Origin: Tomocerus qinae
Taxonomy: Eukaryota; Arthropoda; Collembola; Entomobryomorpha; Tomoceridae
Assembly: GCA_020055645.1 (NCBI GenBank)
Contig: CM034547.1
Span: forward strand, 35,594,909 to 35,658,908
DNA length: 64,000 bases
Direction of reading: 5' to 3'
Made by a program: the position numbers and the translations under genes. The notes beneath the pieces were generated by a model. It was not told the origin of the DNA and did no database searches. It saw only the letters and a list, made by a program, of their open reading frames with translations. Numbering within the stretch: position 1 is the first letter of the stretch; each line of letters starts with the position of its first letter. This document shows, in pieces, positions 11,357 to 13,602 of this stretch.

Positions 11357-13602
11357 ATGACATCATGGTGGAGTTTGGCTTTCCTGTGCCTAGTAGCCAG
11401 TCAGCATGCATTTGCACAACAAGCGAAGCAAAAGCTGCTTATCACTAGCATCTTGGTAAGATTTGTTTCAAATAAAATAAAATCAGAGTAAGTTTATGAA
11501 TACTTTTAATTTTTCCGATTTGCCATTCATTTTAGGAAGAACCTTACCTTTACAAAGGAGATGATGGTGATGGCACACAATACAAAGGATTCGTCGAAGA
11601 CTTGGCAGAGGAAATTGCAGAAGAATTGGACAGTGATTGTAAGTGATAATAATAAGTAAACAATCTACTTAATATACGCAGATATTTAACTAAGGTTAAA
11701 CCAATACTGACTTCTTAATCTTAGTAATATCTTATATTAAGTGCATGCAAATTACATGCAAAAATTAATGAAATGATCTGAAATAGTTGAAATCAGAATA
11801 GTAAAAGATGGACGTTACGGCCAACCCGATGCATCTGCAGGTGGCGGTTGGAATGGAATGGTTGGAGAACTCATCCGTAAAGTAAGATTCGTTTTCTTTC
11901 ATTGCTAATTAAGAGTCATAATGCAGAACAACAAGTAAGATAATTGTTTAAGAAAATAGGAAGCTCATCTAGCAATCGCTCCATTGACAATTAATGCAGC
12001 CCGTGCCAAAGTGATTGATTTCTCTACTCCCTTCCAAGAAGTCCGTCTTGCCATTTTGATGCAAGAGCCTCCAGAAGAAGAGGACGAATCTGATGCTTCA
12101 TTCACTTTCCTCGAGCCTCTTGATGGCTTTGTTTGGGGAGCTGTTCTTTTCGCTCTTATTGGTCTCCTCATTTTGTCTCTTATTGTTGAGTGGTCTTTCA
12201 AAAATCCCGACACCCGACCTTCTGGATTTATCAACTTCTTGAGACAAGATGCAATTTGCAGACCCGAGTAAGGTTTACTTTTTAGTTTAGAAACTTCAAT
12301 TAAATGATGATATGAGACATTAGTCACCTTTATCAACTTTATTTTCAATTGTATATCTTTATTCTTTCGATCATGATTCTATTCGTTATTTGTAGGTCCA
12401 TTACTGGTAAACTTCTTCGCCTGGTTTTCTGGGTATTCGTCTTAATACTTGTGGGTGCCTACACAGCCAGCTTTACTGCTCAACGCCTTGCCGATTCTGA
12501 AGCTCATATTTCTCATCAAATCGATTCTATTGAGGATTTGGTTGAAAGTGATGACGATGACGTCCAATACGGAATTATCGGGGGTGGCTCAACTGCTGCT
12601 TACTTAAAGGTATATTATTTTGCACAACTGCGTCTCGCAATAAGTGCACTATTATAGCAAATTGAAGGATATCAATAACGTGCCTTTATTCCATCCAGTC
12701 TGAGAATCCAATTATTCTATCAGATTTTATTGTAGATTACCAATTTCAAGTCTAGATAATGTTATTGAATGATTTTACGTTTTGTTCAGGCTTCTGATAT
12801 TCCATTGTACAAGCAAATGAATGACGTCATCATAGACAAGGACAACTTTATTGACAACTACACAGAGGGATTAGAAAGAGTCAGAGAAGGTTTCCCAATC
12901 TATTTTTGACTATTGTGTATCCACTGGTATCTGCACTCAAAACTATCATCTTGTTACGTATTTTAATGCTTTGATTTACGAAATTTGTAGGAAATTTTGC
13001 ATTCCTCATTGAATCGCCCAACGCAGAATATATTATCAGTCAAAGCCCATGTGATCTGGTAGTAGTTGGAGAAGAATTTGGACCCAACAAAGGATATGCT
13101 ATTGGAAGTGCCAAAGATTCTCCTTTGAGGTGAACAAATACAAATATAACACTACAGGAACAATTCACCTAAAATAAATATGATTTGCCTGTGTAAGTAT
13201 CCTTAAATAGTTACATTCATGTCTATTAAATACAGCGACCGTGTCAACTTGGCTATCTTGGAAATGAAAGACAATGGAAAGCTGGAGCAAATTCTAAACA
13301 AATGGTGGAATGACGGCGAATGTGCTGGAGATGACGATCAATCTGACGATGACGATGTAAGAAATACAAATATTTAAACATTGTGTAAATTTTGAAACAA
13401 GATCATTTGAAGTTCATGTTCTTACTGACATATTTCAGTTACATTTACTCACAGCTATTTATTTTATAAACAGGACGAAGAAGACTTTGACCGATTGCAT
13501 TTGAGTGAGTTGGCAGGAGTATTCTATTTCCTTTTGGGAGGAATCCTGCTTATTATTATCGTATGGTTTTTGGAAAGCCGAGCAGTTGCTAAAACTGCAT
13601 AA
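11357..13602 (+). CDS. Compact ionotropic glutamate receptor lacking the amino-terminal domain (9 exons)
   Basis: Ligand-gated cation channel subunit of the iGluR superfamily, expected at the plasma membrane. Exons: 11357-11455, 11536-11638, 11787-11881, 11960-12267, 12396-12609, 12790-12889, 12991-13129, 13236-13356, 13474-13602; 435 aa. Order: signal peptide (1-about 21, ending AFA/QQ), S1 (27-134), M1 (about 153-176), re-entrant loop (about 187-202), M2/M3-type helix (207-232), S2 (245-382), last helix (about 404-426), ten-residue tail. Ligand residues by alignment: P107, T109, R114, S267, T268 and E314, the alpha-amino-acid-binding set. The conserved disulfide pair is C327 and C382. Typical iGluRs have 850-1000 aa; the 400-residue amino-terminal domain is absent, and the signal peptide runs straight into S1. 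The pore loop [16 protein letters not shown] aligns without gaps to FMQQGCDISPRSLSGR of AMPA receptors, putting R194 at the Q/R site. The M3 gate reads AYTASFTAQ instead of SYTANLAAF. Acidic runs lie at 138-144, 252-257 and 385-399. Confidence 0.93.

Follow-up and report, generated by a model that had tools for sequence, protein, structure and literature searches.

The window, i.e. the whole stretch of 64,000 nucleotides analyzed here (C2:35594909-35658908 in the genome searched, G000, 334 Mb), contains a glutamate receptor gene of nine exons and 435 amino acids at 11357-13602 of the forward strand. It is of the AMPA type, keeps the ligand-binding residues, carries an arginine codon in register with the Q/R site of the pore, and has lost the pore-helix motif. 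We interpret it as a divergent AMPA-type paralogue without an amino-terminal domain (ATD), whose arginine probably came from an R-type pore cassette, and whose product would bind glutamate, conduct poorly or not at all alone, and damp partner subunits with glutamine at this site. Taken as a whole, we give this interpretation an even chance. The Q/R site is a textbook case of RNA editing. In this genome both versions are encoded in DNA: two genes carry tandem exons, and two others (the window gene and one at C3:50448 kb) have a single arginine exon.

After splicing, the reading frame has neither stop nor frameshift (Table 1). All eight introns follow the GT-AG rule, with a weak donor (GTTTCC) at exon 6. 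The protein matches PF10613, PF00497 and PF00060, each above cut-off, and its best match among solved structures is GluA2 (243 bits), so the resemblance is not due to chance. All 60 structural relatives listed, out of 379 matched, are AMPA receptors. A signal peptide, recognized by inspection, adjoins S1 directly, and in lacking an ATD the gene departs from AMPA receptors: of the PF01094 matches listed, at least 44 in this genome, none falls in the window, although several are close to AMPA and kainate genes. ATD exons upstream of the gene were considered, and rejected for want of a PF01094 match in the window. No close second copy was found in the genome. The viral and prokaryotic contig collections held no confirmed relatives, as expected for an animal gene.

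Table 1. Features of the receptor gene and of its neighborhood (positions in the window)
Feature	Position	Strand	Remarks
Exon 1	11357-11455	+	Signal peptide by inspection, S1 start; following intron phase 0, common to AMPA1
Exon 2	11536-11638	+	S1; following intron phase 1, common to AMPA1
Exon 3	11787-11881	+	S1 (KDGRYG...), Y450 equivalent Y78; following intron phase 0, common to AMPA1
Exon 4	11960-12267	+	S1 end (PLTI...R114), M1, pore loop to E202
M1 helix, residues 151-180	12113-12202	+	Predicted by AlphaFold2, exon 4 alone
Pore-helix segment RPSGFINFL, residues 185-193	12215-12241	+	Shortened and rewritten; replaces ...NSLWFSLGAFM
R194, codon AGA	12242-12244	+	Q/R-site register, from spliced frame and alignments
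I198, +4 position	12254-12256	+	Acidic in AMPA, kainate and delta references
Exon 5	12396-12609	+	SITGK, M3 AYTASFTAQ (residues 223-231), S2 start with GGST (G266 S267 T268)
Exon 6	12790-12889	+	S2; downstream intron phase 1, private compared with AMPA1
Exon 7	12991-13129	+	S2 with E705 equivalent E314, C327, Y342
Exon 8	13236-13356	+	S2 end with C382, acidic linker
Exon 9	13474-13602	+	Acidic linker, M4, stop
TNFAIP8-like gene	40240-40401	+	PF05527
Ctr copper transporter	42100-42777	-	PF04145
Piece without Pfam match	46540-46698	-	
EF-G C-terminus exon	54984-55271	-	PF00679

A sequence-only reading of this stretch had proposed a genomically encoded arginine at the Q/R site, and this is borne out, with exact numbering, by R194. 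The pore loop spans a phase-2 intron, its first part (12236-12267) closing exon 4 and SITGK (12396-12411) opening exon 5. As had also been claimed, the loop aligns to GluA2 gaplessly, namely from the tyrosine of M3 (AYTAS versus SYTAN) back to R194 and Q607. The register was examined under 112 scoring settings for each reference. R194 was the partner of the Q/R residue in 112 settings for GluA2, 112 for GluA4, 110 for GluD2 (gap in two) and 106 for GluK2 (gap in six). The distant GluN2B settled on no single partner (L193 in 38 settings, Q195 in six, I190 in three, a gap in 65) and never on R194. When only the cassette was aligned, R194 was the partner in all 112 settings for both forms of the AMPA1 gene of this genome (AMPA1-A and AMPA1-B), GluA2, GluK2 and GluD2, and in 108 for AMPA2, the remaining four giving Q195. 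A slip of two residues, bringing D196 to the +4 position, was rejected: it puts F192 at the Q/R site, needs an insertion after D196, and none of the settings gave F192.

The arginine itself is less surprising in this genome than the sequence-only reading assumed, and its setting is more so. Vertebrate GluA2 genes with a genomic arginine encode full-length subunits in which the pore loop is normal. Such genes have previously been reported in hagfish and in some teleosts (PMC8659423, citing Kung et al.); the likeness to the window gene is the arginine encoded at the Q/R site, the one residue that the accessible part of that source gives. Zebrafish gria2a also has a genomically encoded arginine, but at the R/G site (PMC4670233, accessible part).

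In its pore, the window gene differs from its relatives at several places. The [LF]WF motif of the AMPA M2 pore helix, ahead of the Q/R site, is absent, with LWFS missing. In three of the five alignments printed by HMMER, GFIN meets GIFN and FLRQ meets FMQQ, leaving the eight residues SLWFSLGA of GluA2 and GluA4 unpaired between them. In the fourth, to a GluA2 construct with a shortened linker, a four-residue gap lies in the linker and the window segment pairs with the helix; the fifth splits at the pore-helix segment. Whether the helix was deleted, or the linker was deleted and the helix rewritten, therefore depends on the alignment, yet in both RPSGFINFL occupies the place of the tryptophan-bearing helix of the relatives. 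From the M1 tryptophan to the Q/R residue, the window gene has a spacing of 35, the shortest of the seven rows measured; the others are AMPA1-B (41), GluD2 (47), AMPA1-A and AMPA2 (51 each), GluK2 (56) and a GluA2 row typed with the linker of GluA4 (59). At the +4 position, Ile198 replaces the Asp or Glu of the AMPA, kainate and delta references, an acid which matters for polyamine block (PMC12226733, accessible part). Instead of SYTANLAAF, the M3 helix reads AYTASFTAQ, with four of nine residues identical. AlphaFold2, run on exon 4 alone as a single sequence, modeled M1 confidently (pLDDT 71-96 in most ten-residue blocks) and gave residues 187-197 a helix of low confidence (block pLDDT 50-71). 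The protein may thus have a short re-entrant helix there; as an arbiter of the pore helix, this model was set aside as too uncertain.

The ligand-binding domain gives a different picture. At 12 of the 13 mapped positions, comprising the ligand contacts and the disulphide pair, the protein is identical to GluA2, the sole exception being M708, which corresponds to N317, and the glutamate-binding residues of S1 and S2 that mark AMPA receptors are present. The protein also carries the Gly653/Thr655 pair, which is of the glutamate type by the rule given in the accessible part of PMC6307864. From these residues, we infer that the clamshell would still bind L-glutamate. Identity to GluA2 is 47/107 in S1, 53/134 in S2 and 9/25 in the M3 core for the window protein, compared with 60/111, 78/138 and 20/25 for AMPA1-A. 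In all five control pairs, the M3 core (19-24 of 25) is kept better than S1 and S2, whereas in the window protein it is kept worse. This suggests that selection held the clamshell, and either let the pore go or changed its task.

How much of a GluA2-like, calcium-proof pore remains, as previously suggested for this gene? The arginine is genomic and in register, and that half of the suggestion stands. The other half presupposes a normal pore loop and is uncertain, because the stretch from M1 to the Q/R site is short, LWFS is gone, the acid at +4 has become isoleucine and M3 has diverged. Compared with a pore like that of GluA2(R), a subunit that binds glutamate and conducts poorly or not at all is likelier. 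The idea that homomers with arginine in every subunit would have low conductance agrees with PMC12226733, whose accessible part reports that a ring of four arginines makes AMPA and kainate homomers poor conductors. The strongest of the other explanations, which we consider unlikely, is that the gene encodes a working pore subunit equivalent to edited GluA2, in which a hard-wired arginine makes heteromers calcium-proof. It agrees with R194 being in register in every setting for GluA2, GluA4 and AMPA1-B, with the presence in the genome of Gln-type subunits as the partners that had been called for, and with other genes of this genome which combine an arginine with the pore-helix motif. These points have to be weighed against the missing LWFS, the shortest spacing of all rows, the lost acid at +4, and an M3 core in which the paralogue keeps more than twice as many of the 25 residues. 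Edited GluA2 and the window protein share the S1/S2 glutamate pocket, the disulphide, the membrane layout and the arginine; unlike edited GluA2, the window gene has its arginine in the genome, no ATD, a short pore-helix region, no Asp at +4 and a diverged M3 motif.

The kinship with AMPA receptors is reflected both in the tree and in the introns. Three rows of AMPA-type genes from this genome, two of which represent one gene in its A and B forms, joined the window protein with a support of 100/98 in a tree of ten rows. The very long branch (2.24) and unusual composition of the window protein make this placement less sure than the support suggests, and in the same tree the KA row lacked one piece of S1 and the AMPA2 row lacked the S1 start and all beyond GSPLK. 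Seven of the eight introns are alike in place and phase to those of AMPA1, as read there from splice signals: before EEPY (phase 0), in S1 (1), after ELIRK/N (0), between P-E/R and S (2), before ASDI/RSEV (0), at SPL-S/K (2), and one within the acidic linker (0) that matches only roughly, since the linker cannot be aligned residue by residue. The intron before GNFAF is private to the window gene.

AMPA1 (C1:102569030-102574907; L023, L003, L005, L036) has two alternative blocks encoding the S1 end, M1 and the pore, located between a common exon ending in ELIRN and a common M3 exon. Block B, on the minus strand (102571828-102571688 and 102571590-102571415), is R-type, with arginine at the Q/R site and the sequence DADIAVAPLTITSQR...NTLWFSIASVFRQGTPITPR. 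Block A (102570899-102570582 and 102570501-102570473) is Q-type, with glutamine and the sequence EADMSMSSLTITAER...NALWFSFAAL/VQQGSDISPR. Both blocks are entered in phase 0 and left in phase 2, and they measure 317 (B) and 347 (A) bases. No M3 match was found between them, so that block B yields a full receptor only if block A is skipped. The splice phases of the last exon of cassette B and of the M3 exon were read in copy 1 only. A second tandem copy (C1:102577-102582k; L022, L004, L006) has the same arrangement; the aligned DNA is mostly 93-96% identical, and 79% over a part with the 3' end of the gene. The tandem pair is a young duplication, and the R exons of the two copies are thus not independent. 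Weak donors occur among the cassettes as well (GTTCGT, GTTAAT, GTTTGA).

For exon 4 of the window gene, cassette B comes nearest, both by tblastn (4e-18, compared with 1e-11 for cassette A) and in a tree of the cassettes (support 92/93). The support is 87/87 for the first 60 residues alone, which exclude the pore, so the pore did not drive this join; neither of the two joins was starred. The cassette score is also best for B (154, versus 139, 120 and 113). Identity counts do not favor B: over the cassette they are 39/100 for GluA2, 37 for GluK2, 35 for B and 34 for A, and over the first 60 residues identity is highest with GluK2. The alternatives to a pairing with B are rejected narrowly or not at all (p-AU 0.044, 0.076, 0.055 and 0.061). 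Cassette B and exon 4 share the arginine, the absence of an acid at +4 and a short M1-M2 linker, whereas B keeps LWFS and has six more residues before the arginine. The AMPA1 gene, unlike the window gene, has ATD matches and an alternative Q cassette. We infer from the sequences that R194 was likely inherited from an R-type cassette such as B, and an R/Q cassette may have given rise to the window gene as an R-only form.

Tandem pore exons are not limited to the AMPA type. In a kainate-type gene on C5 (L037, L039, L019), a Q-type exon with IMQQGSDIAPK (21402466-21402329, 138 bases) is followed, about 270 bases beyond, by an R-type exon with LMRQKSDIIPK (21402055-21401915, 141 bases), both with phase 2 at either end. 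Its sister gene (L038, L040) also has tandem pore exons (C5:21412726-21412866 and 21414225-21414368), both with glutamine. Another kainate-type gene (C3:50448807-50448947, L041) has a pore exon NSVWFITGTFLRQGSGLNPK with an arginine, the helix motif kept and a glycine at +4; none of the five matches of the locus search was an alternative pore exon. An iGluR-like pore at C5:12890900-12891500 (L059), NSMWLLASTLVLRGCDIRLQ, has leucine at the Q/R place and arginine at +1. Overall, arginine was found in five of the 12 AMPA/kainate-type pore exons read, two of the five being copies from one recent duplication, and by locus at least one arginine exon occurs in five of eight. This count is made outside the NMDA-type (L028, L029, L060) and IR-type loci, L059 and L063, and outside most of the at least 144 PF00060 matches of the genome, so further exons of the AMPA/kainate type are possible.

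Phase-matched tandem exons suggest that the Q/R residue could be switched by exon choice. That this arthropod sets the site by tandem exon choice instead of RNA editing, with the window gene as an R-only, ATD-less, low-conductance, glutamate-binding offshoot, is a tentative proposal, somewhat more apt to fail than to hold. Such a genome would show a pore switch built in DNA, and would supply natural Arg-pore subunits for testing. In the accessible parts of the literature searched, to which most subscription papers did not belong, we found no account of one genome in which both an AMPA-type and a kainate-type gene choose between Q and R through tandem pore exons, and none of an AMPA offshoot that is R-only and lacks both the ATD and the pore-helix motif.

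The scenario that we prefer starts with the duplication of an AMPA-type gene with an R-type pore cassette, which would have given the ancestor of the window gene. This copy would then have lost its ATD along with some of the pore-helix region, and the pore and M3 would have drifted. With its arginine, shortened helix region and changed M3, the protein, if expressed, would alone most likely be a poor or non-conductor. The glutamate pocket and the membrane layout make it suited to glutamate binding, and may also let it join Gln-type subunits. If it assembles with full-length subunits of this type, it would lower their conductance and calcium entry. The ATD guides subunit pairing in AMPA receptors, and its loss argues against an efficient co-assembly. 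Frog, chick and fish have kainate-binding proteins that are similarly compact and ATD-less, with a glutamate-receptor ligand-binding domain and membrane helices. The window gene resembles them in its missing ATD and its predicted glutamate pocket; they belong to the vertebrate kainate lineage and the window gene to an arthropod AMPA-type lineage. Ligand binding and conduction would come apart in this gene, with the ligand-binding domain kept and the pore diverged, and it could serve to test which functions a glutamate-receptor subunit can have when its pore is abnormal.

Arthropod ionotropic receptors (IRs) mostly lack the ATD, have variable pores, and have usually lost the glutamate contacts. 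The genome has at least 144 matches to PF00060, with 150 of 256 candidates scored. Most of them are on C1 and many lie in single open frames of 600-700 amino acids, which is consistent with a large, intronless IR-like expansion. IR25a is usually a single-copy gene; here, we take three loci to be IR25a-like (L049, C2:65.8M; L050, C3:35.07M; L061, C2:41.67M), and presumably L052 is IR93a-like and L062 IR8a-like. Such loci, along with the long frames of IR type that lack introns, mark this as an arthropod genome, probably of an insect. Both the missing ATD and the altered pore are shared by the window gene with IRs, and given the large IR-like set, the gene could be a chemosensory receptor evolving toward an IR and sensing external amino acids. 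Unlike most IRs, it retains the glutamate contacts, and its introns and tree position are of the AMPA type, which makes this explanation quite improbable.

Slightly less probable again is a channel function decaying under relaxed selection, toward a pseudogene. Divergence specific to the pore, the long branch, the missing second copy and the one weak splice donor would fit such a decay; 435 intact codons, splice sites that are all GT-AG, and the retained ligand residues and disulphide speak against it. A gene-model artefact, where the true transcript uses an unrecognized pore exon as in the related genes with tandem exons, is very improbable, as introns 3 and 4 measure just 78 and 128 bases, and two Q-type and one R-type pore queries over 8001-18000 of the window gave only chance-level matches (E of at least 0.3) beyond exon 4, and thus no second credible pore exon.

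Rfam and tRNA scans over the window gave no matches. Further along the window lie three pieces with Pfam matches and one without (Table 1), the latter presumably resembling the C-terminus of EFL1. Just downstream of the receptor gene, at 14194-14616, is a MITE-like element of 423 bases, with inverted ends of 57 nucleotides that are 93% complementary.
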